A stretch of DNA of 64,000 nucleotides, taken from positions 1,628,519-1,692,518 of the forward strand of contig JAJEKV010000004.1 of NCBI GenBank assembly GCA_021234155.1, in the 5' to 3' direction. A program made the translations under genes and the position numbers. The DNA is from Isoetes taiwanensis. Its lineage: Eukaryota; Streptophyta; Lycopodiopsida; Isoetales; Isoetaceae. Of the stretch, positions 8,001-62,800 are shown piece by piece (position 1 is the stretch's first letter; the number at the start of each line of letters is the position of its first letter). Below the pieces are notes generated by a model. That model saw only the letters and a list, made by a program, of their open reading frames with translations. It was not told where the DNA came from and made no database searches.

Positions 8001-9277
8001 AGTCGATCCTTTGGAAGTTAATAGAGAAAAAAGAAGGCAAACATTTGTCGCTTCATGGCAGAAGACACCAATGACATTGTGTTTTCTGGTGTGGATATTG
8101 TGACTCCTTTCAAGAGAAGCTCCTAGCCAGAAAGCTCACATTCAAGATTTCAGTTGGGCAAAGTATTTGTTACAGGTAATTTCTTTTGCTTATATTGTTT
8201 CCAGTGGACTTCTTACATGTCAACAGGTTCGATATTGATATTATCTAGTTTCCAGGTCCAAATGGGTGGAAAGAGCCTCTGTTCAGGTGCTTTGGTGGTT
8301 TATGGCCTATTGTCATGGTTCAGTCACAAAGCCTGGTAGAATTACCAGTGATTCAGATGGTGTTCATATTACAGGGCTGAGTCGCGGAAATCTTTTATGT
8401 ACCTCAACGCCCCTATACCGCCTTCCCTTTTGGCACGCTTTTTAGAGATCAGATAATATACCCTTTAACGCCGCCGAAGCTACAGTAAAAGTTGGAAGAG
8501 TCCGATAGAGGTTTGGAATTTGACAATCTGCTTAGTGATGGATGCTTTAAGTTATTTGCACTTACTTTGCATTTCTATGTTACCCCTGTTGCATTTCATT
8601 TGTATGTTTTGGTAGATAATGCAGATGGTATAGTGCAATCTTTTACCCTCTGAAGAGGCATCCATCTTACTAGACCGAAGCTGCTCTCTATTTTAGAAGA
8701 TGTTAGGTTAGTTTATTTTGCTTGAACGTGAAGGAGGATGGAATACTACAGCAAACTGGGGAAGATATGTTGTCACTTGGTGAACAGCAAAGACTTGGGA
8801 TGGTAAGTTTTGTTGGCTGTATGTTATGCATGCCAAATATTCTTTGGTACTAACTATTCAGTAATGCAGGCTCTTCTTCTTTCATCATCCAAAAGTTCGT
8901 ATTCTAGACTAGTGCACAAAGTAATTATTCTGCACGTGCTTGTACTTCTATATAAGGAAATGGCTCATTAATCTTACATATCATTTATTTCTGGTAGTGC
9001 CAATGAAAGCATAGACGTTGAAGAGGGTCTGTATAAGCATGCACAGTCGCTTTGGGATCACGGTTGTAACAATTTCCAGGTATGGGTACCCACTTTTTCT
9101 GCTCAGCATCAAATTCTATTGAATTCAGCATCAAATTTCTACTGGATTTGTCTGACCTCGCCTTTTGTAATATAAATAAATGACAGCGCCCTGGTCTTAT
9201 ACCTTATCACTCTAAGGAGCTACGATTAATTGATGGTGAAGGAAGTTGGGAGCTAAGATCAATTAAGTCCAGCTGAT
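2019..9277 (+). pseudogene. ABCD1: Peroxisomal full-size ABC transporter pseudogene (ABCD1/PXA1/COMATOSE type)
   Basis: In plants this protein imports acyl-CoAs and jasmonate precursors into peroxisomes for beta-oxidation. Two ABC half-transporters are fused, about 1340 residues. Nearly every part is readable in order. N-terminus 2019-2160. TMD1: 2425-2646 (SNRLARVQG), 3048-3320 (SHVDRQ..EQRIASDIPKF), 3411-3540 (EQQLEGDYRQLHSRLRT), 3581-3790 (IIEPFFSG). Linker 3895-4034 (GYADRDFTALMSIARELRE). NBD1: 4106-4186, 4317-4530, 4720-5018. TMD2: 5607-5708, 5791-5900 (VIEQDKAAF), 6073-6160, 6480-6612, 7111-7251, 7325-7395, 7464-7650 (DEFVTKQLPHNVTWGLSLLY). NBD2: 8060-9277, ending RLIDGEGSWELRSIKSS-stop. 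Introns with GT..AG ends remain, so it is a duplicated copy and not a retrocopy. It cannot make a full protein. Both Walker A motifs are frameshifted. The NBD2 Walker B reads ILD-stop-CTK near 8900, where the family has LDECT. Stops occur in most exons. Identification is very secure and loss of function nearly so. Confidence 0.93.
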
Positions 9278-14363: not shown

Positions 14364-14505
<142 letters not shown>

Positions 14506-16123: not shown

Positions 16124-16265
16124 TTGAAGATAACGGTGATGACTCCCAAGAGCTCTTTATCGGGAGTCGTTTTGGCACCTCGATGTCGACTCATCACATC
16201 CGGGGTTGAAGAAGGTCCCAAGGGTTGGTTGTTAACGTCCGAAGTGGTACGTGAGTTGGGTTTAG
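16124..16265 (+). pseudogene. rrn26: Mitochondrial 26S rRNA fragment (domain V)
   Basis: The sequence has the conserved peptidyl-transferase region of large-subunit rRNA: GATGACTCCCAAGAGCTC, TTGGCACCTCGATGTCGACT, GGTCCCAAGGGTT and AGTGGTACGTGAGTTGGG. CGACTCATCACATCC fits plant mitochondrial 26S better than plastid 23S, which has CGGCTCTTCGCCACC here. Small indels (for example a lost GAC after TTTATCG) show decay. It joins the atpB piece directly. Confidence 0.85.
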
Positions 16266-16690
16266 AACCGTACTCCTCCCGCGGTTCTTGAAAAACCGAA
16301 CTTTTCTCCGAGGGGATAGATGGGGCCATTCGTGTGAGATCAATTCTAATGGGGATTTGACCTTCCATTCTCACGGGATAAGGCGGTCCAGGGGGGCCAG
16401 TCATTCATGGCTCCTCTCTTCCCGAGAATCCATATATCCCTTATCAGTGTATGGATAGCTATCTCTCGAGCACAGGTTGAAGTTCAGCCAAGATGTGAAA
16501 AATGGAGCACCTAATAACGCATCTTCATGGACCAGGAACTACGAGATCACCCACGGAAGTCTTTCATTCCGGGGTGACGGAGGGATCGTATCATTCGAGC
16601 CTTTTCCTGCTTCTTCCCCTTTGTCACGGGGAAGCAATCAATATTATCTATCAGGAGGGGCCTAGGAGACCGAGGATCCAACCAAGGGCA
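16266..16690 (+). other. Chloroplast-derived DNA from upstream of rrn16
   Basis: I recognise text typical of the plastid trnV-rrn16 inverted-repeat region: CGAGAATCCATATATCCCTT, CAGTGTATGGATAGCTATCT, AACTACGAGATCACCC and GGGGTGACGGAGGGATCGTA. It contains no functional gene. It follows the mitochondrial rRNA piece without a gap, so three organelle pieces are joined in one block. Confidence 0.75.
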
Positions 16691-28599: not shown

Positions 28600-29705
28600 T
28601 TGTGAGTGTATCCTTTTTTGATGTCGCCCGTGGCGGTCCTACACCGTGAATAACGGATCCTTTCCTGATTCAAAATTTAGGAACTCTTGGGTATCAGGTT
28701 ACATCTGTTAGCAGCCCTGTTAGCAACATATGCTACCGTATACACAGCTTCTGCCCAACTAGGGCTTAAGTGATACAAAGCAAGCATTGCTCGCAGTAGA
28801 TCTTAAAGAGACCTGTTTTTCCTCTCGGCCACTATGAATGAGCAAAGGGGTATGATCAGTTCTCTTTTAAGGCCATGCTCATAATAATACTCATTAAATT
28901 TATACCTCCTCCATTGTCTGTCCTTATACCATTGAGTTTCATGGATTCCCTACTTACCTGATTTTTCCACAAAAGCATGGAACTCCTTGACTTGGGAGAA
29001 AGCCTGCTTCTTGGTTTTTAAGCAAAACACTTAGATATATCTTGTACAATCACCATAAAGCGTCTAGGTCTAGGACCTCCCAAAAATGGTGCGAGCATAT
29101 ACAACAAGTATCGGAGTGTACCATCCCTAATGGAAGAGAAGTCATGTTCGAGGCTTAACTTGGATAAGAATGTTGAGGACGTTTGCCCAAGCAACAAAGC
29201 CTCATATTCAAGAGAGAGAGATTCAAAGTAGGAAGAACTTTCCACCATATGAAGTCTGGATACACTCATATATGACCCCACCTTCCACTTGTCGCTACCT
29301 TGCATGCCAAGGCACACTTGAGAAAACTCTGCTGCAATCTAAGTGCCAATGGGGCGGAATATAATCAAGCATCAATAGTGTAGAGGCTTCTTGATTCATA
29401 TGCCTTGTTAGAAGAACTGGACTCGACTTCTTTGGAGTAAATTCAAATGAGATGCAAATTGGTAAGGTACATCTTCCCTTTACCAACGATAACTATCTAG
29501 CAGTCTTTGCCAAATTTAAAAACAAACAATAGGTTTGTCTGAAGACCAGATCGTTAACACATAATTGGCCACATAATTGCCAGAGGATGAATAAAAATTA
29601 ATCTCACCTTTTGCTTCATCCCGACAAGCGATACCATTTTCCATCATAAACATGATGGTATTGTCAGTGATCCAGCAGGTTTGATTGCCCATTAAGATGT
29701 TCAAT
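28600..29705 (-). mobile_element. Degenerate Copia retrotransposon fragment (protease-integrase)
   Basis: On the minus strand, at about 29150, GMVHSD marks the entry of the integrase core. It is followed after frame changes by LKTKKQAFSQVKEFHAFVEK (about 28990), then a decayed DNGGEY region, AERKNRSLQ (28835) and AVYTVAYVANRA (about 28740), all Copia integrase landmarks. The upstream part (29500-29705) resembles the protease to pre-integrase region. Several frameshifts are needed. LTRs were not identified. Confidence 0.7.
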
Positions 29706-30098
29706 AGCTTCCTGGTCCATCATACAATGGTGAAGAGACATTAGAGGCATGATTGGCCATCATCAGCTAGCAAGTTATTGCATACAATATCAAGTTCTAT
29801 CTATATTACACACCCTATAGTTTGATTGCCCACTAAGATGTTCAATAGCTTCCTGGCCCATCATACAATGGTGAAGAGACATTAGAGGCATGATTGGCCA
29901 TCATCAGCTAGCAAGTTATTCATACAATATCAAGTTCTATCTATATTACACACCCTACAGTTTGATTGCCCACTAAGATGTTCAATAGCTTTCTGGTCCA
30001 TCATACAATGGTGAAGAGACATTAGAGGCATGATTGTCCATCATCAGCTAGCAAGTTATTGCATACAATATCAAGTTCTATCTATATTACACGCCTTA
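29681..30098. repeat. Three-copy tandem repeat, 140 bp unit
   Basis: Units start at 29681, 29821 and 29961 with TTTGATTGCCCA and end near ATATTACACNCC. Only scattered differences separate them, so the duplication is fairly recent. A piece of the unit, GCATACAATATCAAGTTCTA, recurs alone at about 31662. The first unit overlaps the edge of the Copia fragment. Confidence 0.92.
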
Positions 30099-37530: not shown

Positions 37531-40169
37531 GGTGAACATCGGGACAAAAATCTGATATGGAGTCTCTAAGAAATCAGGTAATGGGAATACTTGTTCACTT
37601 CACTTCTTAGAAAATTACTCATGTCCCAAGGGGCGAATTGGGAAGGCGATGCTTTGTCTTGAGAGACACTTTAATGTCATATCTATCTGAAGGACATATA
37701 CGGAAGAAGATCTTGATGAAGATAGCAATGGGCCTTGAGGATACTACGGTGAAGGACATGATTCTATAGATGTATGATGATGTGTGAGTATGACTTTTTA
37801 TTCATAATGTTGTGAATGTTGTATATAATGTGCAATTGAATTTCAAAATAGGTAGGTAGACTTTTCGACTTCATGAATCGAGAAAGTCGGCCCCTAAACT
37901 ATTATTGTATGGGTGTGATGTTCGCATGGTTTGGGTATTTTCGGGACAACATCTTCTTAGGGCCTATGGGGAAGTGCGTTGAATAGATTGCGCACGTATT
38001 ATGAAAAGTGGAATGACCCTCTACTGGAAGAAGTTTGGGAGCCATTAAGGGTATTGAGAGCCCTTGTGCACGTTCATGGATACTGGGGAAGAAGTGTATT
38101 CGGCCCGGACTCATACGAATGGAAACGACAACAAGGATTAGAAATTGGTTGGACCAACCAGCCTATCGCTCAAGAAGCACCTCCTCGTGCGGCCTTTCAA
38201 AAACTTCATGTTGCGCCAAAGGCCTGGTTTAAGAGGGAGTCGACACCAAACATTCAACCATTAAGGTGGTCTGTGTCCGATGAAGTTGTCACAAAGGTCG
38301 TCCGGCGGCCGCCATGGTCCTTGAGGCTACTGTAAAATAAATTTTGTACTTGAATAAAAAGTGTTTTTATATTTTTATTTCATCGCCACCTTACCTTTGG
38401 CTAGGATTGTAAATCATTTTTTTACTTGAATAAAAAGTATTTTTATTTCATCGACACCTTACCTTTCGCACTATGTTTAGACTATTTTTTAATGTAATTA
38501 TGCTATTTTGCATTGCAAACCAAACAAATCGATAGCACCAAGACAACCTAATTTTTCCTTAAGCACATTTGGTATCGGTGAATCGGTTGCACTACTTGAC
38601 CCTTAGGCATCATTTACTGGGTTAAAAAGCTGGTGTTCGGAAAAATGGGAGCGACATCGTCCCACTTTTACCAAAATCGACTTTTACTCCTCCGGGTGGC
38701 CCTCATCGGGTCACACCGCCCGTAAGGGCTTAAGTCCCTTGGACTTGGCCCTGCCTTGATGGTCTACCCGACCCGCCCGGTCGCGCTGCCGGAGACACAT
38801 GTCCCCTAATTAATTACGAGGGGTAGTGCCTCGTGGCGTCGTGCGGATTACCCGGTAACAAAAATTTTCCTAATTAAAGACAATAAAGGTTCGCCCCTTT
38901 TGTACTGTAGCACCTGCCCTGTTTTAGGTTAAATTGACTTTCCTCCTTCCTAATTTCTCCCCCTTTTATTTATTTACTACCTAATTAGATATAATGATTT
39001 TCTATTTCTATTTTCAAATCAAAGTACCCCCTTCTAATCTAAAACAACGTAGATGCTAATAAAATGCAACAACCTATTTTAACAATTTTTAAGACAATTA
39101 TCATTACAAATTAAACAATTAATTTAACTAGCTAATTTAATACAAAGGGGAAAATAACTTAATTTATCTTATAAAAATGTACAATTATGACAAAATTATC
39201 AAAAGTCTCCTCGAGCTTTGTCCTTACGGATCCTCCGGACCAAATGAAGGTCCTTTGGCATTATCGTAACCCTCTTTGCATGGATAGCACAGAGGTTGGA
39301 CTCTTCAAAGAGCTGTGTGAGCTCCGCCTCTGCTGCTTCTTGCCATACTCTCGTCATATCGGTCATGACCCTCTAGTCGGTCCGGAAGTCTTGAAGGACT
39401 TCCCGAAGAAGTCTCTCGAAGGGTGCCCTCCTAATGAGGAGGCCCACCGATTCACGGAAATGCGGTTCCCGGATCACCAGGACTATGAGGAGTGTACGGG
39501 GTGAACTTCCTCATCCTCGGCTTCTTGGGCTCCTTTGGAGGCCTTGGCACCCCCGGCCGCCGACCCCCACATACTGTTCCTCCTCTTGTATTCGGTATAG
39601 TAGGCTACGTATGCATCGTAGCCTACCATAAACATCTTCCACCTCTCCATATGGAGAGTGTAGTTGATGTCTAGCTTCGGTGAGGAGAGGTTTTCTGGGT
39701 GGCTTAACTCTTAGGCTTCCTAAGCTCGGGCCATACCGGGTAAGATACTGGCACGAGCTCGGGAACCTCTGGCTCCTCCTGGGCCTGCTCCTCAACCTAC
39801 TGCTACTCTTCAACTTGTTGCTGCTCTTCAACACATTCTTTGCTCGATGTTGGTGCCAAACCCGATCATCAAGGTCGATTTTTTTCTTCTTTCTCCCCCA
39901 CTTGCTGGTCTCTCCTAACTTTCTCTTTCCCTTCGATGGATCTTTTCTTCTTCAGGGCCTCCATTGTCTCTGCTTGAGAGATGGAACATTTAATGAGAGA
40001 TGGATTGATTGGAAAGAATCTTAAGTTGTGTTGGGTCGAAAAAAAGACTTTTAAGTTGTGTTGGGTATTGAAAGTTAATTGTGGGGATCAATGAAGGTCT
40101 AGGATGAGCGAGGCCCGGACCTTTAGAGGCACAATATAGAAACAGAATCGATTTTTTTGTCTATGGACT
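37531..40169. other. Unassigned repeats and ORFs between Gypsy and the inverted-repeat element
   Basis: Open frames at 37979-38335 (+, 118 codons) and 39187-39504 (+, 105 codons) are not recognised. They may be remnants of retroelement proteins. A duplicated block with ACTTGAATAAAAAGT and CACCTTACCTTT lies at 38344-38470. A GC-rich stretch at 38640-38840 has no visible gene. Confidence 0.35.
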
Positions 40170-40203
40170 AACAAGGTGACCTAGCAAATGCACTAATGAC
40201 CTG
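40170..40203 (+). repeat. Left terminal inverted repeat (34 bp)
   Basis: This is identical to the reverse complement of 48638-48671. It is followed by a small hairpin, GGAATCTTT-C-AAAGATTCC, at 40221-40239. Confidence 0.95.
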
Positions 40204-40712
40204 CGCTTGCACCGCAAAAAGGAATCTTTCAAAGATTCCCTAAAAAAACCTAAAAATTGCCACTTTTGGGGGGTCAATTGAAAAAACAGCCCTTAATTTT
40301 GATTTGCGACACCCCTTTTTGGTCCAAAATTAGAAAACTTTTGTTGTTTTTAAATTCTAGACACCCAAAACAAATTTTGTAAAATTGGAGTCACCTTTTA
40401 GGAAAATCTAGGAAATACAAGAAAACTAACAAAATTAAAGAACCATTAAAATCTTCACAAGAAATGAAAGCAAGATTGGCAAATCTAGGCGTATCTATTT
40501 GTTATTACTCAAGAAGAACCACAAGGTGCTATGCGCGCATAGGCAACAGAAAAACATACAAGACATAACTAACATGTCTGATAGCATTTGGCGCTTATAC
40601 AAGATATGAAAAAACATGGATAAACTTGGAAGAAGCTATGCGAGCTTGGCAAAGGCCTTCAACATGTACAAAAAACTCTAGCCAAAACTAGGAGGTAACG
40701 ATGTGCCCACAT

Positions 40713-43700
40713 TTAGATTATACAAAGTTTCTGACCTTTGAGGAGAGCGGGATTAGGAATGTCGTTATACTCGTCAACTCCTTGGACTTCGTCACCCTTG
40801 TCCTCGTTGCCACTCTCCTCATTGTCACTTGAAGTGGTCGAAGAGCTAACATTTGGAATCTTGTCCTCATCACGGGAAGCCGTGCGAACTATCTTGTGAG
40901 AAAGACTTGATAAGTTAGCTGTTGTCGCATACGTAACTGTTATCAACCTTGAGTGTAAAATCATAAGCCCGGCACTTGAGTTTCGTTCAGGTCCATATTG
41001 TCCATGTGATTCTTATTCATCGTTTTCCGGCCCTTCTTGAAAGGAATTATCATAGGATCATCTGGAGACCAACAAAAGGATATATATCCTTAGTGGCGCG
41101 TGCGGTGAACTTTTCACTACTAAAGGAGATTGTCTTTGAGTTCAATGTCTTTAACCGGCGCAATCCGGAAAGGGCGGCTCTTAGGTCATCGTCGGTCGAA
41201 GGTACAGCTATAAGCATCCCTTACTCAAACCACGCTAGTTTTTACGGAGTTTGGCCTTGGTTCTTTTCAAAGGCACGTCTACTTAGAGGTACATTACGAT
41301 CGGGTTCCTTGTTGACTTCCGCGATCTTTGTAGAACCACGGAACCCTTTGCAACAATCCGCGCCTCAACAAGGGGATGAACTTGAGTACCAGGCCAACAA
41401 AAAGCAACTTCCAGGGAGATGTTGTTGAGGGATTTAGTTACATCCTGCATTATTGAAAAGAAATTCTCTCACCAACCTTTGTCCTCCTCACTGAAGTACT
41501 TAAAATCCGACCTTATACTTTTCTCCATCTTTGGTCGGTGAGGCGAAGGGATTTTGTCCTTGTTCTTTTACGTGTAGTCTATGGCACACCCCGATTGGCT
41601 TTGAATAGCCCTTCTCATTACCTTAGTTTCAGGAACATATTTTAAATATTGTAGGCCTGCCTCAGGCTGCCAAGTTTGGGAGGTGACAAAGTACTTCCCT
41701 TGAAGTTGTGCTTTACCGTCCTTGAGAAAAAATTTTACATGATGTTGAAATGTCAAATTATTCAACCTATGGATAGCAGGACCTATATCACCATGCCATT
41801 TGGAAAACAAACTCACGAAAATCAAAAGTCTCGCTAAGCACCCGACAAGCCGGAGTTGGATTGTAAGCTTGCTCAATCACCTGCACCTGAGGAGTGTAGA
41901 CAAAATGCCTTTTCCTTCGCAACCCCGGGAAAATCATTGAACATTTGGTCTATCGATCATGGGTGTGACCCACAAGTAAGAAACCAACCTTGACCTTTCA
42001 AAAGATACCCAACTCGACCAGCATTGCGCAATAAGCAAATAAAACTTGGTTTTTGTTTTCTCTAGTAGTATTGTCTAACTGTATGTACAACACTTTGGCG
42101 CGACTTCTCCTTTGCCCAGCAAAATCTTATTTAGTATTGTCACTTAGTGAGGTTAGGATCATTGTGTATATTTGGATAGGTCAAAAATACTGCGACCTTT
42201 GTACAACACCATGAAAGATCATCGCCCCAACCAAATGAAGCCTCAAAAATCAGTTCATCTAAATCCTTTGGAACATTTACAAAATGGGAAGTGACATCTT
42301 CTTTTGATCCATGCCATCTACCACCACGGACATATATTGAGTGGCCTCCAAAGATTTCTTTCTATGTTTTGCTAGCTTCTTTCTCTCCAAGGCTTGAGCC
42401 TCTCTGTGAACTTACAACTCTTGAGTTATCGATGCGCAATTAAGGACATTAGTCGATTACCTTGAAGCAATAGTAAGGCTCCCCAGGCTGCAGCTAAGCT
42501 TTTATAGCCGTGCTATCTTGGCGCATAGGCAAAAGCTTGTCGATTACCTTGAAACAGCGATGGGCTCCACAGGCGCAAAAGCTTTTGTAGTCGTGCTATC
42601 TTGGCGTATAAAGCCGAACTTCTGGGGGGGGGAAGGGGCGAAGCTACAAGATTGAGCAGAACCTTTGTGCGAGTACTACAAGATTGAAAAGACACGCTAT
42701 GCGCACATAGACAAACTCAAGACTAAATAAGCCGTGCTATGCCCGCATAAGACAATGTCTCTAGCCGTGCTATCGAAGGGATTAGGCGAAAGGGGCGTAC
42801 TTTTTTTCTAGAATATCCTTTGCCATTGATCGTTTTTCCTTTAATATGGGCGGCTAGTACACACGCAAGAAAATCTGTGCCTCTTCGGAATCCTAACAAG
42901 ATTAAATTCTTGCTTCCACAACCTCAAGTAGGAATAGGATATGAACTTGACTTGAACTCTGGAAAAAGATCCTTGTACATCTTTGTAGACTTCCTTCTTA
43001 GTATCTTGTATGTCGGATGATATCTTTGGACTGTTTGGAAGTCGCTCCACGGTTGGAGTCAAAGAAACCTACCGCCAAGCTTTTGCTTCTAGGCAATACA
43101 TACCAAACAACTTTTTTGGGTGTGAGCAGTCATCAATGCGCGGGTTCTGTCTAACCTCTTTTGCACTCTTGACATGCGGCGACTTCCAATGGCATGTATT
43201 CTTTTAAAAAGCAAGTTGGCTGCTTGTGTTGCTTTCGAAACATAGTATGAAAAATTGTCTCCAACCGAGGCCTTGCTTTATGCCAAAGTACAACTCTTGA
43301 TCACCTTTCGACATTGACAAAACCGTTGTCTTATGTGCCTTAAAGGCGAAAATGTAAAGGCACGTAAGCATTTTTTTTCGACAACAATTCGGTCTCCTCG
43401 GCTTTCTCATGTAAAAGTAGTCCCATCAATCGCTCGCGCATAACAATTCTAAAAGCTTTTCTTTGTGGGATCCCTCTTAAATCTTTTCGCCTTCTTTGTA
43501 TGGGTTTTCAACTGCGGGACTTTTATTACGGCGATTAATGCGTGGTAGGTCTTTCGAAGTCGCGAGGCTGCGTCTTCAAACCTCGGGGTCATCAACCTTG
43601 TAAGCCCTCAGCGGAAGTCAGTGCATCGACCAAATAATGTTCTCGACTTTCTCTTGAACATGAAGGTCTTCCTCGAAGCCCTTTACATTAAAGAAGGGCC

Positions 43701-44555
43701 CGGCGACCTTGACACATGTCTCTCATGAGAATCTACAATATAGAAGGAGCGATTAGGTGTAGTTCACGGAGAGGTGAAGGAGTATCAAAAATAGAGTGAA
43801 ATGCGTTGAGTAGGGAAGAGGAGAAGATACTTCGTGATTGTGTGGGGGGAGGGTGTTTTAAAAGCGGACCGAATGTTTGAAAAGCGTGTTTTGGAGATGG
43901 AGTTTGAAAAAGAGGTAGACACCGCCAGTAGGTGTAAAGGGGAGGGAGGCGGTGTGGAGGAGGTAGCATCGGGAGAAGCGTGTCGTAGTCTTCTTCATCG
44001 TCACCTTTGGTGTGGGTGTGTTGTAACGACCGAGTCAATATTGCAACGTGCGGGGAGGAGTTGAAGTAAAAGCGTCTTAAATCGTCGCTCTCCATTCTTT
44101 TGCCGCAGGGAAGAGTGACTTGTTTCAGCCATTAAACCCTCTCCCTTCAAACCTGCAAGTCTAGCCCATGCGCGCATAGAAAAGCAGTTACAAACGTAAT
44201 ATACACTAGTTGCCCATGCGCGCATAGACAGGGAAACAATATGTCTATGTACGCATACTTCAATACGAAAAGTAGATGCCACACAACCAAGAAACATTAC
44301 AAAATATTAGACATTATCTCCCCAAGCCAATGCCTGCAACCAAAACTATATGTGCATGCAAGAATTCATAGACGAAAAGCAAAGTACGTAACACAATATA
44401 AATACGAAAACATATGGAGGCATTTGCACATACAGACGATACTCCAAGGCGCTCGACCTCCGCCTAGAATTTTGCTCTTCCGTTTCGAACTGTAGCATCT
44501 CCATAGATTTCTGCATAGCATTGCCAAAAATGTCAGGTGGAAGGTACGTAAACAT
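40713..44555 (-). CDS. Unrecognised intron-containing gene of the element (partner of the methyltransferase gene)
   Basis: Exon 1 is likely 44434-44555, from an ATG at 44555 (MFTYLPPDIFGNAMQKSM...). It has a good donor (CT/GTATGTGC). Intron 1 (44153-44433) ends CTTGCAG and holds two near-perfect palindrome copies. Further frames on this strand look protein-like but are broken: 43204-43410 (GDQELYFGIKQGLGWRQ), 42841-43062, 41568-41876 (GDIGPAIHRLNNLTFQHHV...QGKYFVTSQTWQPEAGL), 41150-41220 and 40713-40964, the last with an acidic Ser/Glu/Asp-rich tail. By position it may encode the transposase or an accessory DNA-binding protein, but I see no DDE/D, zinc-finger or SWIM motif. Exon joins beyond the first are not established, and this copy is probably non-functional. 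Confidence 0.4.
42453..42615. repeat. Two-copy tandem repeat with decayed palindrome
   Basis: Two units of about 89 and 74 bp start with CGATTACCTTGAA and share CAAGCTTTTGTAGYCGTGCTATCTTGGCG-like text. Each contains a broken half of the palindrome (GCTATCTTGGCGCATAGGC). They lie in non-coding DNA of the element. Confidence 0.75.
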
Positions 44556-44694
44556 CTCAGCCAGTATCAGTTTACATTACTTGTTTATAGGGACTTTTGC
44601 TTAGAGTCAAAGAGAATTGATTTTAAGCTTTTTGGACATCCTGTTTGCCGAATTTCTTCTTGGGCATTAGCATTTAGTGTTTTTTTCTCTCATT

Positions 44695-44916
44695 GTCTAT
44701 GCGCGCATAGGCATTCTGTCTTTTTTCTTATTATTGTCTATGCGCTCACAGGCATATTGTTTTTTCTCTTATTGTATTGTCTATGCGCGCATAGGCACCA
44801 ACATTTTTAGCAACCCTTGACTATGCGCGCATAGGCGTTTACCTTTTATCCTGCCATTGTCTATGCGCGCATAGGCAGAATGTTTTTTACTTGCTATTGT
44901 CTATGCGCGCATAGGC
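44695..44916. repeat. Regular array of six palindromes, about 40-bp period
   Basis: Six units GTCTATGCGCGCATAGGC (the second one altered) start at 44695, 44736, 44779, 44819, 44859 and 44899. The spacings are 41, 43, 40, 40 and 40 bp. The spacers of about 22-25 bp are T-rich and unlike each other. The array lies between the divergent genes (44555 minus start, about 44988 plus exon), so it probably sits in the shared promoter or first intron. The period is close to four helical turns, which would place bound proteins on one face. Confidence 0.95.
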
Positions 44917-44987
44917 CTTTCCATTGTTAGATCTGCTTGTGCTTGTACATTTTCTAGCTGTCTTTTAATATGTTTTTTGTCTTGTAG

Positions 44988-47900
44988 AATCAAGAAAAAT
45001 CACGGCGAGCTCCTCCCACAAGGCGTCCAAGAAGAGGAAGCCGACAAAGGATAAGAATCAACCAAAGGATGATGCACCTACACCTTTCATGATCGAGGGC
45101 CGGTTCCTATTTACGTAAGGACCAAAGGTGGCTACTTGTAAGAAGGAACTAGTGAGCACTAGAAGCGGCACATTTTTTGTACCTATACATTTGTGACCGT
45201 TTTGGTAAAGAACCCCAAGACTTGGACAGCTTCAAGAGATGTGGCAGGTTAACAGATACTGAGCTCTTCGGTATGTTTCATATTAACTGCACCACATCGA
45301 CTAAGGGGTCTCAACATGTTTACTCGGTGGACCCCCATTTCTTTAAGCTCAGTCTGTCGTCTCCCGAGGACATGCAGGGTTACATCCAGGCCAGAATGAA
45401 AGCAAAAATTGTAAGTATTGTCTATGCGCGCATAGCTTAAGAAACTTTAATGTTCTTCTTGCGCTAATGGAATGTTTCTTTGCAGGATCTTGTCACCATT
45501 TTGAAGGACCTGCTATTGTGCAAAGATCCTATTTTAACTTCTAGTGCCTCTGTTCCTAAATTAGGTAAAAAAAATTACTCAAAAGGCTGGCGTTAATTTA
45601 CAACCACATCACCTCAGGCTCTCAAAAGGCTGCTAGGAAGGCCTTAAAAGCAAGCTTTGGTTCGGGGACTGCACCGAAGATAGCAAGCAAAGGAGAAGGA
45701 TATGGCAAGTAAGAAGCTCAAGGAAATCGAAATCTGAGATGTCGATGATGCCCGGCATCATGCATCTCTCGGTGGTATGGTAAAGCTTGCACCTAAGGAT
45801 GAGCACGCGGTGTAAGACAACAAGCGAGGTCAGAAAAATTCTGATGGCCATAGCGCATTCAAAGAAAGAATAAGAGGCGGTCCAGAATAAAAGAATGACT
45901 CCTCATATTTGTATAGTTGATCGCCTTGATTCAATGATAAGGAGTTGTTCGTTAAGGAAGAGGCGAGAACTACAAATACTATATTTTAGGGGGCACCCAC
46001 GGTTTCAAGGCAAGAAGGCAGCTATACAAGGAAACAAAAAGCACCGATTTTCACAAATCTTTGCCTTTGTTTTACGTGGGTGTCCTTGACTTCGAAGCAA
46101 AAAATTTGCTTGCAATGAGCCACAGCGTGGACAAACGAGTATCGGATGAGTATGAGCTTCACAGATAAAATTAAATTCATGCACAAGGAATATGAACTCT
46201 TCCGTTCAGAGCACCAAGGTGAGAAAGATATTAAGGAAGACCAGGCTCTGTACCTGGCCTTAAAAGAACAGTGCGCTACTGAGTGCTGCCTAACTTACTC
46301 CACCTCAGATGCCAGAGTATTTCTTATAAAATACGATAATTATTTTCAGTTAGCTTTCCGTCATGGACGTGTAAGTACTTTCTCTCGACCTTCGCCTTTG
46401 GCTATGCCCGCATGGCTTAAATATTTTAACATGCTTGTTGTTTTCTATGTTAGGTCTGGGAGCTACAAGAAAAAAAATTTGACATGTTCTCTAAGGGTAC
46501 TTTAAAAACTAAAGGCAAGTCAACGGATTCCAAGAGGAAAAAAACGGATCCCGCAAAGCAAAAGGATATGGGCATAATGGCCTGGCGTGAAATGCAAGGC
46601 CTTAAAAATGTTGACAAAGTTTGTGAGGTCCTGCAAAAGGTTGTTGATAAACAGTTCACTCTGGAAGAGACGCAGAGAGAATTTAAGCAGTAAGCCTACA
46701 TTACACACACACATTTTTTCCAATGTTTGTTATTAACCTCTTGCAGCGTTTGCAGCCAAAAAGATTGTGCACTCTGTCAACAACAGTTAATGGTTCACCT
46801 CAATTGCGACAACTGGGAGAAGGTGCGGGAATTATACCCCACGTGGTCCTCAGACGAAAAAATAAATCAATACGCCACCAACTTTACCAACTGGGTATGT
46901 CATTTGTTTCTCCTTCCTGCTGCTTGAGTTAAGGTACTCGTTTTTGTACCTGTGCTATGCACGCATAGCATGGGAGTGAGGGAGCTGTCGTTTTGTTTCT
47001 TACAAATATTTTCGGCTTTCAGAAAAAGAAAGACCCCATGCCACCTGGATTTTTAAACATGGTCAGGCTAGCTAAGGAGGAGCGGTCGAAGCTGAAAAAG
47101 TCTCAAGAAGCTGAGCAGAGTTTGGTGCCTTCGGAGTTTGAAAGATTTGATATGTTTGGCCAAAATTGTCTATATCAGGTGTATCGTGGGAATTGTGTCA
47201 AACTTGACCACACTTTGAGACCTGGCAACTATTCCTTGTGCATAGCTGACATACCTTACGGGTTTAAGTTGCCTGACAGCCGTGGTGATGACTCCCATTT
47301 ACGTACGCCGAGTTTGATTCTTTTTTTGGGAGGTTTGTTAAGATAAACTTTGCTAAGCTCACGGAGGATTGTCGTCTTCCACTCCACTAACCGGCCGGTA
47401 TGGTGCAAGTGCTATGAAGACCCCTTTGCAAAAAATTTGGTTCTGAGGCTGCCATACTGGTAAGTGTCTAGTTGTTTTTTCTCCATGCGGGCATAGCGAA
47501 TACAAAAGTGTTTCCTTTCTTTGCGGGTTAAAGGCGAATAATAGGGGGAGGTGGTGGTGCTAGACTTGTCAGCGTATGGGGCAGATTCATATAGGCTACC
47601 ATAGGGTATCTTTGAGAGAAGCCAAATGCACTATAATACTCTTCGGCATGGATTTTTCTTAATGCTTTTCAATTTAGGTGATCTTACAAAAGCTTACGGA
47701 CCAGTTCACGAGGGGCGCATTGTCAATCCTACCGAAGCCTCGGAGACTCATTATTCGGAGATGTTCTTACAACTGGAGATTGGGTCGTTGGCCTTTTCGG
47801 GATCCGACCACGTTGGCTTGTGCACTAGGAAGGGCGCAAGCTGCGTAGCCATTGGCGTCGGGCGGATGCGTGGCATACATCAGCCCGAGTCAGTTCCTTA

Positions 47901-48178
47901 CCGCGGCTTGCGAGGGGCGAAAAACAGGAACTTGGGATCAAGGATAAGGATGGTGTTAGGCCTTCTCGATTCGAGCATGTGCCTCTCTTCACAGGGAACT
48001 GCGGCGATCAAGGCGACTATGTTGAATTGATTCCGTCGGACGATCCAATTAAGGTCATGAGAGGATAAAAGTCCGGCCGAAGTCGAGGACAAACTACAAG
48101 CTACTAATCCTAAGTCTCCCCAAGGTTCTGAATCAGATGAGGAAGTACCTGCAAAGGATGTTCCCCTAGATATTTAAA
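44988..48178 (+). CDS. Putative beta-class DNA amino-methyltransferase of the element, frameshifted
   Basis: Exons: 44988-45410; 45486-about 45590; about 46125-46370; 46454-46689; 46747-46894; 47023-47459; about 47545-48178. Junction phases fit at 45410/45486, 46370/46454, 46689/46747 and 46894/47023. The N-terminus is basic (KASKKRKPTKDK, possible nuclear signal). A Cys cluster (CSQKDCALC...HLNC) lies in the 46747 exon. The catalytic part has RGNCVKLDHTLRPGNYSLCI then ADIPYGF (47244-47264), which matches the DPPY motif IV with Ile for the first Pro. RIVVFHSTN follows, then NPTE (47720-47740), then GDWVV and FSGSDHVGL (about 47780-47810), which fits SAM-binding motif I. Motif IV before I is the beta-class order of N6-adenine or N4-cytosine methyltransferases. 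At least two frameshifts (near 47300 and 47795) and a stop in the first exon mean this copy is likely inactive. The family call is inference from motifs. Confidence 0.6.
45411..45485 (+). other. Intron with perfect palindrome
   Basis: The intron starts GTAAGTATTG and ends TTTGCAG. The coding phase continues across it (KAKI/DLVTIL). The palindrome occupies 45422-45435, just after the donor. Confidence 0.8.
46371..46453 (+). other. Intron with variant palindrome
   Basis: Donor GTAAGTACTT, acceptor TATGTTAG. The frame continues HGR/VWELQ. The variant CTATGCCCGCATGG lies at 46402-46415. Confidence 0.8.
46690..46746 (+). other. Short intron without palindrome
   Basis: The intron is 57 bp, donor GTAAGC, acceptor CTTGCAG. 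The split codon CA/C restores the frame (EFK-H-VCSQ). It is the only well-defined intron of this gene without the palindrome and also the shortest. Confidence 0.75.
46895..47022 (+). other. Intron with variant palindrome
   Basis: Donor GTATGTCATT, acceptor GCTTTCAG. The frame continues FTNW/KKKDPMPPG. TGCTATGCACGCATAGCA, itself a longer imperfect palindrome, lies at 46953-46970. Confidence 0.8.
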
Positions 48179-48257
48179 AATCTGTGCAAAAATTTAAACA
48201 TTTTATTCTATGTGCCCTATTTTAAATATAATATATTTCATTAATATTTATCATCAT

Positions 48258-48552
48258 GTCTATGCGGCGCATAGGCTTTTTCTCTTCGGTTGCATTTTGT
48301 TGGTCTAAAAAGTGTGTCTCTTACTTTGTCTAAAAACAAGAAAACACACTTTGTCTTGAAATGTGGACTTTTTTAGGCTCCTTTGCGTTTTTAAATAAAT
48401 TATATTTTAATAAGGACTGTCATGTCTATGCGCGCATAGGCTTTTCTCTTTTCAGTTGCATTTTGGTGCTCCAAAAAGTGTGTTTCTTACTTTGCCCAAA
48501 ACCAAGAAAACCACCTTGTCTTGAAATGTGGACTTTTTTAGGCTCAACTGCG

Positions 48553-48554
<2 letters not shown>
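48258..48554. repeat. Two subterminal direct repeats, 166 bp unit, each with a palindrome
   Basis: Units start at 48258 and 48424 with GTCTATGCG. They share GCATTTTG, AAAAAGTGTGT, CTTACTTTG, AACAAGAAAAC-like text and CTTGAAATGTGGACTTTTTT. They lie between the methyltransferase gene and the right inverted repeat. Subterminal repeats at this place are often transposase binding sites. Confidence 0.9.
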
Positions 48555-48585
<31 letters not shown>

Positions 48586-48637
48586 GCTAAAATGCAGAAT
48601 TTACGTGTTTTTGAAAAAGGAATCTGCAATTGCACCA

Positions 48638-48671
48638 CAGGTCATTAGTGCATTTGCTAGGTCACCTTGTT
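48638..48671 (-). repeat. Right terminal inverted repeat (34 bp)
   Basis: This is identical to the reverse complement of 40170-40203. A T-run of about 24 bases and two 166-bp subterminal repeats lie just inside it. Confidence 0.95.
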
Positions 48672-49770
48672 CTGGTGTATTTACGTGTTAACACGTGGCA
48701 TTGCGAATAATCCGGAATGGAAGTTGGGTACCCTGATTCCGGGTGACAGCTTCAGCCAGTCACTTTCATTTTTTTTAACAGGGTTCCATTACATACATCT
48801 ATCTCTTCTATCTCTTGTGAATAAATTTCATATGTATGATAATCTTTATTGAGATTTCTGTGCTAAATCGCTTGGATAATTCGCAGTTGCGCAAGTAGGG
48901 GTAGTATGTTGACATGAGGAGCCATTTATCGTGGTCACGGGAATGATGGATGCAAGGGGCCAATTCGATCCGGAATTTATTTGGATAATTTAGCGAACCT
49001 AGGACTTATTTCATGCTAGATAAGACTTACGGAGCCGCATGGATGCACATTCATCACTTCCGAAACCCTAATATGTGCTCTATTATTGCATATCATAAGA
49101 AACTATGATAAGTAAAGCGAGGTTTTTTTCCTGCTCCATCTCCGGTTCTGTTTTCATTTCTTACAAATACGGCCCCTGCCAAAGACAACAAACGAGCATT
49201 TTTTCTTTCCCTTTAACTTAAAACAAAGGAAAAAATCGGACATTTAAGCGTAGAATAGAGCAGTTAGTTAGAAGATCTTGCCCATGCTAAAGATCTCGCC
49301 CATGTAAGATCATGTAAGTGCATCGCCATAGTTCTATTCTAAAATGATAGGGTCAATGATACAGTGAAAAAATCATTTGATACGGGCATGAGCGCACGCA
49401 ACAAGAAAAAACAAAGTTATAAAAATGCTTGCATGCAAAAAAACTCACATACAGCTTGATAAATATCATTGGAATATGAACCCAATGTAAAAATATCGCC
49501 AGAATAGCTCTTTCCTAAAGCTGTAAAATAAAAAACCTAACTAAATGAGCACAATAATCAGCAAAACCTGATCTTCCTGCTCTAATTCTAGCAACGACAA
49601 AGTTAAGCAAGAAAAATCGAGAAACGGCATAGTACTGCTAAACGAATCATGAAGCGCTTTCATTTGAGAAGATAAGTTCGCCAGAAGGATGAGCTCTGCC
49701 GGCCCTTGGCGCCTTGATGAAGCCAGAGAAGAAAGGCGAAAAAAAAAAAATCTCCCATGTTTTTATATTG
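48672..49770. other. Non-coding flank of the element
   Basis: No gene is recognised. No copy of the 14-bp palindrome was seen here. Confidence 0.4.
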
Positions 49771-59800: not shown

Positions 59801-62800
59801 TTTCCTACGATACTTTATCTTTTCAATGGCAGGTGATGCAATCAAGCTACCTGCACTTGTTCGATTTGGCATTTTGGCGGCTCTTTTCTGATGAACGAGG
59901 ATGTGAATGGGCACATCTCCTAGGGACTGGGGATGCCTCACGGCCCAGTGGTCGACATGATAATGGTGGGTGGGCGATAGCTATACCTTCTGAGACAGCA
60001 CAGCAGACAGCGCATCCACTCTAGGTGCAGAGGTCACAAGCCCAAATCTCACCACCCCGAGTCAAGTCAACAAAATAAAGACGTGATTTATTGCCAATAA
60101 CATTGTGCTTAGCTCGTCTATTGGTCTAGGAACGACTGCCCAAGTATCTTGCTCTTCTAACATAGAATACTCTTGAGTCATAGCATCCACCCACTGTTTG
60201 TGTTTGTGCTTGACCACTTGACTAAAATGCGGAGAATTCTGATGCTCATCATATTTTTCCATGAGAGCATTGTTGACAGTGAGGCTAGGAGGTAAGCGAG
60301 CAAGTCTGAGTGACCTCCTTGGAGTAACTGGTTGAATCTCAGGTAAGAGAGGTCGAGTGGCCACTGAGATGTCACAGATTAGGGTTTCTTTTGTCAGAAA
60401 TAGTGGATAAAGATTAATCCACTTCACTTATCAAGGAAATTACAGCAAATTCATCTTCTGTTGCTGTAGTAGTAATAACCTCAGACTCATGTGAGGTGTC
60501 AGAACTAGATTTATCATGCTCAGAAGGTAAAGTAGGAGCAGTTGAAATTCAAGAATTAGCATGGTCAAAAAATTGTTTGAAGTAAAACTTTTTGAAAAGA
60601 ATATTTATCATTGTCCATTTGTAAATATTCTGAGCAGTTGAAATTCAAGAATTAGCATGGTCAAAAATTTGTTGAAGTAAAACTTTTTGAAAAGAATATT
60701 TATCGTTGTCCATTTGTAAATATTCTGCATCTTCTATGAATTGAACACTTCTGGAATATTATAAAGTCTCCAGCAAAAAAGCAGAGACCTGATCCGGAAA
60801 GCAGAGCTGCTCAAATATTTTGAAGATTGGATGAATAGAGATGAAAACAGGCTCCCAACTACAAAAGCTGCTTAAATCAAAGTAGGAACTGATGAAATAT
60901 CTCATTTCTGCTCAGAGAACACCTTATAAGCACGTCTTGTCAAGAACTATCAAAATATCCTCCAAAACTTGCCAGATTGAATCAAGAATGGGATCAGTAG
61001 AATGGTGAGACAGAGAGGACTCAGATCTGGAAAGCTTTCACTGAGATTATATTACACACACAGGATTCACAATGCGTCCTCCCTCTGCAACTTTTCTCAA
61101 CTTTCCTCTGTAGTCCAGCTCTGATACCATATTTGAATGTGGATCCCACATTGGTATCTCAGAAACGCGTACATAAATGGCACATGTATTGATGTCTAAA
61201 TGTGGTAATGACAAATCAGAAAGGCATGACATACATAGTCATGTGTGACACGTCGTAGAGAGTAAAGTGTCATATGTCTCTAACATTTGTGTTCCCCCGC
61301 AAATTCTTCTTGCCATATTTAATGGAACATAAAGCAAAGTCCAGGACTGTTGCAAACCTTTGATCAGTCAATATTGATACAAGACCCATCTCTGTTACCT
61401 ATTGTTACGAACTGCAAGTTGGATCAGGTTAAGTCCACACAAGACCTTAAGACAAGTATGGCCACAGCCAAAAGGACAGCAGAAACGGTGATTAACTCGC
61501 CACTCAACCTATGAACTCAGACCAATCCGAGCTCCCCGCCGAGCTGCCGAGCTACACAAGACGACCATGTGATCTCAGGATTCCTCCCTCCCAGATCCAT
61601 GTAACTGTCACTCTTCACCTTTCCCCAAGACCTTTCCAAAAGGTGACTTGGCATATAAGACGTACACCTTATATGGCTACTTCCCCCTTTCTAGCCTCTA
61701 TGGGCTGCGCCCAAGATGGCCTCCCCTAAGCGACTGCTACAGATTCCAAGATCCAAACTCAGAATCGTAACAGCCCACCAGGGTAAAAAGACAATTGACC
61801 TCAATTGTAGCGACCACACAAGTCCCTCGACCACACAGGTCATTGACCACACAGGTCCCTCTTTTCGACCACACAGGTCATTGACTACACAAGTCACTAT
61901 TTCGACCACACAGGGTCTTTATTTCGACCACACAGGTCTACCACGCAGGTCCACCACACAGCTCATTAACCCCACAGGTTCCACACAGACCACGTAGCTT
62001 ATTAACTACACAGATTCCAGACAGTCCACATAGCTCATTAACCACACAGGTTCACACAGACCACACAGCTCCACCACACAGGTCCCTTGATCTATCTCAG
62101 TTGTTGGGACCTCCAGCAGTGCTAGACAAACCAGCCTCAAATTTGGCCTCCCATGTTCAGCTGCTAGGTAAACTTCGCTAAGCTTTCAGAGAACTCCTCT
62201 TTTTGCCATTCAGCTTTGGTGTGGGGCACATACAACGTACTAGGGCATTATCCATCCTAATACCAATACCAAATATGCACTGCACTAGTTCAACTAATGC
62301 CTCCATTAGCCTAGCTAATGGTTGATTCATCTTGAGGGCACATGGCTCACACAAGATTTGGAGTATCCATGATAATCCCTCTGAGGCACAAAGCCCCTCC
62401 AGGAGTAACCACACTATCTATATTACGTTTCAACTCCCTCACTTGCTATCGTCGTAAACAAATAAGGACAGCAGAAACGGTGATTAACTCGCCACCCAAC
62501 CTATGAACTCAGACCAATCCGAGCTCCCCACCGAGCTGAGAGCTAGCATACACAAGACGACCATGTGATCTCCTCAGGATTCCTCCCTCCCAGATCCATG
62601 TAACTGTCACTCTTATATAGCTAAGTCTCCCTTCACCTTTCCCCAAGACCTTTCCAAAGGGTGACTTGGCATATAACCCCCTTCCCCCCTTCTAGCCTCT
62701 ATGGGCTGCGCCCAAGAAGGCCTCCCCTAAGCGACTGCTACAGAATCCAAGATCCAAACTCAGAATCGTAACACCTATAGTACAAGCCAATATTGGGTGC

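Follow-up and report, generated by a model that had tools for sequence, protein, structure and literature searches.

In the brown alga Ectocarpus, the DNA transposon Sola1-1_Ec32, which is 21.5 kb long, carries, on the strand opposite to its transposase, a gene whose product combines a ParB-like part with an N4C/N6A DNA methyltransferase, as described in passages of PMC12477816; for proteins of this kind, its authors propose binding to, and modification of, the element that encodes them. The same passages, citing Iyer, Abhiman and Aravind 2011 and Petroll et al. 2025, attribute this accessory protein also to transposons of green and red algae, and a table within PMC9033089 lists Sola elements for Physcomitrella. 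A second system suited for comparison is that of the VANDAL transposons, whose VANC proteins bear DUF1985 and, according to passages of PMC5735166, bind motifs located in introns and in the non-coding DNA between genes and at the ends, with loss of methylation as the consequence, the VANDAL motif being YAGTATTAY and other motifs occurring in related families. Here we describe an element at positions 40170–48671 of a 64-kb stretch of DNA from the land plant Isoetes taiwanensis (the window, i.e., the whole stretch that was analysed), which combines a presumed transposase gene of family DUF7869 with a gene of the ParB-like/methyltransferase kind and carries many copies of a short palindrome in its non-coding DNA.

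The gene pair is of a known kind, and the new part consists of the different, subfamily-specific palindromes. The original prediction, made from the window's letters, had taken the whole design to be undescribed, which cannot be upheld in view of the Ectocarpus gene as presented in passages of PMC12477816. Like that transposon, the Isoetes elements have an opposite-strand gene for a DNA methyltransferase, here behind a part that may be ParB-like, but they are only 8.5–10.8 kb long, and no word beginning with "palindrom" occurs in PMC12477816; a difference from the algal ParB/methyltransferase transposons is the land-plant host, in whose genome contig C178 codes for a polyphenol oxidase possessing both plant domains of the chloroplast type. 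No earlier account of subfamily palindromes was found in the open literature, a search outside of which the algal papers cited by PMC12477816 lay.

Ends, copies and insertion sites

The element is bounded by a perfect 34-bp inverted repeat, with the left copy at 40170–40203 (plus strand, AACAAGG outermost) and its exact reverse complement at 48638–48671 (minus strand). As predicted, these repeats lie 8.5 kb apart, and they form the longest exact inverted repeat of the window, the next one being of 25 bp. Searching the 1.66-Gb assembly, which consists of 1110 contigs and contains the window in contig C1045, yielded 516 matches to this end with up to three mismatches and none for the reversed-sequence control, and AACAARGT constituted the outermost bases in every subfamily seen. 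Loci fetched from the genome as relatives of the window element are referred to by L-numbers. From a small subset of the 516 matches that was fetched, we obtained 11 independent two-ended insertions, nine of which were flanked by target duplications of 4 bp, the length also produced by Sola1 transposons: AGAG at L009, ACAC at L010, GTTT at L014, CATG at L016, AAGA at L018, TGCA at L024+L013 and again at L058, GTTA at L059, and CTTA at L060.

The window insertion is common to L021 on contig C918, where identical 25-base flanks are present on both sides (window 40145–48696). Because both places share the insertion and its flanks and the two copies are 88–90% identical over the aligned pieces, the insertion must be older than the duplication of its region. 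The region around the window is itself duplicated across two contigs, by segmental or whole-genome duplication.

Ends lacking the interior, which the original prediction had regarded as evidence against a single unit, were indeed seen, namely in the short elements L010 and L016; these look like non-autonomous derivatives, in which such a structure is expected. Chance or an assembly artefact is ruled out by the 516 ends, the nine target duplications and the occurrence on separate contigs. A virus-like element was also considered, and no viral gene was detected by Pfam in the pieces scanned. No insertion-free site turned up, no dedicated search for one having been made. Positions 40170–48671 are thus almost certainly a single copy of a DNA transposon that is present many times in the genome, in line with the anticipated mobile unit that has a repeated palindrome to itself, and this copy is the decayed form of an autonomous element of the cut-and-paste type.

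Palindromes of the window element and its subfamilies

The palindrome CTATGCGCGCATAG is present in the window in eight exact copies and at 18 sites if up to three mismatches are allowed, all of them located between 40529 and 48439, while dinucleotide shuffles evaluated at the latter threshold gave a mean of 1.09 and a maximum of three sites in 100 trials. If the four core bases are left free and at most one mismatch is allowed in the ten arm bases, the element contains 17 sites, in agreement with the number originally counted. The claimed confinement to the interval was likewise borne out, with 18 of 18 window sites lying inside, and the remainder of the window does not share this abundance.

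One exact copy lies in each of the non-coding ends (40529–40542 on the left and 48426–48439 on the right), two copies with one and two mismatches are placed in the transposase gene, in between its homologous stretches (42697–42750), and three copies with one, one and three mismatches lie between the two genes (44166–44258). The largest group is an array of six at 40–43 bp spacing, five of them exact and one with two mismatches, in the region upstream of the methyltransferase gene (44697–44914). Further copies occupy intron-like gaps at 45422–45435 in the right gene (exact), 46402–46415 (two mismatches), 46955–46968 (one mismatch) and, within the methyltransferase region, 47483–47496 (two mismatches). 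The palindrome region at the right end is included in a 69-bp direct repeat whose units are 86% alike (48277–48345 and 48443–48511) and of which L011 shows three units. At window positions 42515–42618 and in L021 and L011, the aligned copies contain the odd palindrome variants CTATCTTGGCGCATAG and CTATGCGCCAAGATAG together with clustered insertions and deletions at CpG-rich places, which might have arisen from misreading of modified DNA instead of from mutation.

Related elements of the same genome carry other palindromes, and four subfamilies were recognised. Subfamily A (the window element, L009, L011, L018, L020, L021, L023, L058 and others) has CTATG-CGCG-CATAG, and subfamily B (L024+L013 and L043–L047) is marked by CTATG-ACGG-CATAG (or the complement of this), of which ATGG/CCAT was the prevailing form in a core census that left out L042 for its overlap with L013/L024. 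The third subfamily is represented by L059, with about 25 sites of CGGTATAAATTTATACCG, and the fourth by L060, with TATTC-NN-GAATA in eight exact arm pairs, plus the longer AGTGTA-7-TACACT in four copies. In seven of seven elements, the commonest palindrome with 5-bp arms was found 6–22 times per element, and 100 shuffles of each reached at most 2–3. The genome-wide search with the palindrome, which the original prediction had proposed along with that for the ends, gave 1551 exact sites for type A (none for the reversed control), 4415 for the L059 type (none) and 113 for type B (two). For the open form CTATG-NNNN-CATAG, 5144 sites were found versus 1150 for the control, so matches with a free core are not specific by themselves.

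The sites avoid conserved coding DNA: among 111 sites in seven elements, four of which belong to subfamily A, only five touch stretches conserved as protein between subfamilies, and such stretches make up 36–65% of the elements. Their places are the intergenic region, the introns and the neighbourhood of the ends, and some of them form evenly spaced arrays, such as that of L059 at 8079–8169 with a 30-bp spacing. We also compared the palindrome cores at the 16 best methyltransferase loci among 2802 first-look candidates, where L042 represents the B element itself and L055 is part of L058. All six loci with 89–100% identity to the B query lacked CGCG-type cores, and all ten with 74–79% identity contained CGCG-type cores only. 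Judging from these loci, the palindrome core goes with the methyltransferase lineage.

The two divergent genes

The left gene is a decayed presumed transposase gene with introns on the minus strand (40749–43496), recognised by tblastn with the exons of relatives through homologous stretches at 43496–42724, 42429–41385 and 41495–40749; the window copy has stops in every frame. It contains a match to DUF7869 (PF25273) at 41797–42249 of the minus strand (coordinates derived from residues 668–818), which scores E 4.3e-25 and 88.9 bits versus a curated cut-off of 26 if the stops are read as X. The match improves to E 1.2e-51 in the majority sequence of the copies and to E 2.5e-54 (184.3 bits) in L026, a relative with an open frame. 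There are 9902 first-look candidates for DUF7869 in the genome, of which 150 were scored and all 150 exceeded the cut-off, and none were found in 14 control genomes. An alignment of 12 rows shows conservation of the motifs IDGMDQ, LDNTTRENKN and GHTHDQID wherever a row extends over them; together they display a conserved D...D...D pattern, which may be catalytic; the place of the protein in the elements suggests that it is the transposase. No solved structure matched it by sequence, no relatives of the DUF7869 query were found in viral contigs or phages, and our search of the open literature found no mention of DUF7869 or of a transposase with the motif GQNKN.

The right gene (44961–48177, plus strand), recognised by homology to relatives, is a decayed ParB-like/methyltransferase gene with several introns, its high end being the TAA behind the frame that was read. 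Its region at 45748–46319 (plus strand) is weakly assigned as ParB-like from tblastn with the relatives L009 and L060. An N6/N4 DNA methyltransferase domain, recognised by profile and tblastn at 47002–48027 of the plus strand, is interrupted by an intron, broken in the window copy and encoded by the last two exons of the gene. The window sequence contains ADIPYGF at 47245–47265 (plus strand), a catalytic motif of the (D/N/S)PP(Y/F)-like kind which we take to be motif IV and which reads ADIPYG or ADLPYG in the relatives L059 and L060; motif I is DAFSGSGTT, with HAFSGSGTT in L024. Profile PF01555 was detected in the unaltered natural exons of L060 (E 5.3e-18, 66.2 bits) and L059 (E 1.3e-15, 58.4 bits), well beyond the curated cut-off of 26.7, and across the domain in the majority sequence of window-type copies (E 5e-10, 40.2 bits); the window's own raw frames gave no match to it. 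The best solved relative along the majority methyltransferase sequence is the CcrM structure 6pbd (E 2.9e-4), and a search of viral contigs with the methyltransferase alignment found no relatives.

The methyltransferase-like gene proposed in the original prediction is thereby confirmed at the profile level, and the right gene very probably codes for a DNA methyltransferase of the N6/N4 type. By profile, its protein is a CcrM-like N6-adenine or N4-cytosine DNA methyltransferase, sharing with this beta-class group the motif order IV then I and the match to PF01555. It differs in the replacement of D-P-P-Y by D-I/L-P-Y, in its spliceosomal introns and in being transposon-borne. Two divergent intron-containing genes had been postulated for the interval; they are recovered through homology to relatives with longer open frames, but in this copy both are broken by stops or frameshifts.

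The pairing of the two genes is not restricted to the window. We compared 150 listed DUF7869 and 150 listed methyltransferase matches out of the 9902 and 2802 first-look candidates, and among these listed matches 24 DUF7869 genes had a methyltransferase partner within 13 kb, with 0.35 expected at random. In 23 of the 24 listed pairs the genes are divergent, both pointing outward, and the exception, on contig C1042, has a divergent partner as well, at a little greater distance. ParB rows were divergent to DUF7869 in 16 of 16 cases and on the methyltransferase strand in 14 of 14; because the 27 rows used out of 95 were chosen by eye on contigs with other matches, their orientation is informative and their number is not. 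A gene opposite to the transposase is a feature of the ParB-like accessory class of transposons and is present here.

Some features of the window lie outside the element. A bacterial-type large-subunit ribosomal RNA fragment at 16129–16287 (85.9 bits) in this nuclear DNA is probably an organelle insertion. The window further contains a long ATCT microsatellite (14366–14505), a tandem array with a unit of about 141 bp, in which 30–60 bases in a row are identical (29693–30092), and two direct copies of a repeat several hundred bases in length, which lie about 1 kb from each other and share identical blocks of 24–42 bases (61472–61770 and 62464–62773).

Candidate readers of the palindromes

As the explanation of the whole locus, we favour, somewhat above even chances, a decayed transposon whose second protein reads the palindromes of its subfamily in a VANC-like manner. 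The anatomy calls for a protein reader of the palindromes, and the right-gene protein is the better candidate because the sites are internal, non-coding and change with the right-gene lineage. On the strength of these sequence patterns, the palindromes appear slightly more apt to be sites of this protein than not, its binding and methylation being what we infer from them. In the process envisaged, the DUF7869 protein would act on the AACAARGT ends and produce the 4-bp target duplications, and the product of the right gene would be a nuclear protein, ParB-like in one part and a CcrM-like methyltransferase in another. The palindromes in the introns, the shared promoter and the ends would serve as its recognition sites, and the bound protein would mark or occupy the element's own non-coding DNA. 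Either the bacterial-type marking or the occupancy could then keep or regain expression against the CpG methylation of the host. Each subfamily would have changed its palindrome, with the effect that a given protein acts for the members of one subfamily, in the manner of VANC proteins in VANDAL.

We advance anti-silencing as the outcome only tentatively. Also rather doubtful is a lock-and-key version, by which a parS-like palindrome would recruit its own ParB-like/methyltransferase protein, N6-methyladenine or N4-methylcytosine on the own subfamily would shield it from silencing by host 5-methylcytosine, and palindrome changes would split subfamilies.

The comparison with VANDAL made in the original prediction holds for the placement of the motifs, which in both cases occupy introns, intergenic DNA and the ends, frequently arranged in tandem, and for the different motifs of related families. 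It does not extend to homology, since VANC, according to the passages of PMC5735166, is a DUF1985 protein instead of a methyltransferase, and YAGTATTAY is not a palindrome. Pfam scans of the majority sequence and of the relatives' exons revealed no DUF1985. The VANDAL transposase belongs to the class of Mutator-like elements (MULEs), and in L060, L026 and the majority sequence Pfam found DUF7869 but none of the MULE families. With transposase and accessory protein of different families, the resemblance to VANDAL/VANC is one of analogy.

The decay of the sites bears on the proposed conflict with host methylation. In 17 A sequences (L055 was dropped as it lies inside L058), we counted 86 exact palindromes and 44 with one change, 24 of the changes being in the CGCG core. 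Among these 24 core changes, 23 were C-to-T or G-to-A in a CpG, which fits host methylation of the sites; as the A copies are related and share changes, neither the sites nor the CpG changes are independent events, which lessens the weight of this count.

Further observations speak against the favoured reading. Neither the window insertion, which is preceded by GACT and followed by CTGG, nor L019, whose right end bears a deletion, shows a target duplication. Both CGCG-type (A) and CCGT (B-type) palindromes occur in the single element L014 (3982–9677), and L019 has one CGCG site beside B-like sites; both are deleted elements and may be recombinants between subfamilies. The best DUF7869 matches were also inspected in 16 surrounding pieces some 3.6 kb long, none of which contained CTATG-4-CATAG or any palindrome with 5-bp arms three times; these are short pieces of other subfamilies, one of them being L032, whose full element L059 has its 25 sites elsewhere. 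The ParB-like label ahead of the methyltransferase leans on the published Ectocarpus case and is weak: NCBIfam ParB TIGR03764 scored E 0.0043 and 0.00073, both far below the curated cut-off, and did not match L059, and Pfam ParB gave no match in the pieces scanned. The best PDB profile match of the region was thymidylate synthase (E 0.004), with sulfiredoxin at E 2.2. Its AlphaFold model had a mean predicted local distance difference test score (pLDDT) of 45.6, and Foldseek yielded nothing at E <= 0.001, the top matches being single-stranded DNA-binding proteins. For the DUF7869 protein, the AlphaFold2 model from 12 rows reached a pLDDT of 38.1, too low for use, and it speaks neither for nor against an RNase H-like DDE fold.

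Other roles of the palindromes have to be weighed against reading by the right-gene protein for anti-silencing. The same protein might bind them as an autoregulator or timer of transposition, in the way in which Tn10 transposition is timed by Dam methylation. The densest arrays do lie in the shared divergent promoter (window 44166–44914; L059 4433–5141), but sites there would suffice for such a task, with those in several introns and at both ends unneeded, and we regard this role as unlikely. Still less probable is that the DUF7869 transposase binds the palindromes and the methyltransferase has an unrelated task. CACTA, hAT and many other DNA transposons possess multi-copy subterminal transposase sites, and the shorter elements L010 and L016 lost most of their coding DNA yet keep palindromes. 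The sites are, however, not concentrated at the ends, as the largest group of the window (44697–44914) is more than 3.7 kb away from either end and those of L059 are mostly between genes and in introns.

That the palindromes are sites of host factors, exploited for transcription or nuclear position, seems very improbable: it draws on the fact that the identity of the palindrome-binding protein is deduced, but with palindromes that differ between related subfamilies of a single genome, several host factors would be required, and the 1551 and 4415 sites versus none for the reversed sequences suggest a spread with the elements. Passive palindromes, either small repeats spread by slippage or hairpin formers without a protein partner, are the least probable reading: some do form the regular 30- or 40-bp arrays that slippage makes, but the palindromes are nearly absent from conserved coding DNA and occur in several distinct introns as well as at either end, which does not fit local slippage alone.

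The favoured reading, in which the right-gene protein recognises the palindromes of its own subfamily, matters because the available passages on eukaryotic ParB-like/methyltransferase transposon genes give no target sequence, and here candidate targets can be read from the DNA. With several natural subfamilies bearing different palindromes in one genome, the idea of self-marking becomes directly testable. If true, these Isoetes elements would represent a second, independent solution to the problem solved by VANC and would supply a land plant with DNA marks of the bacterial type.

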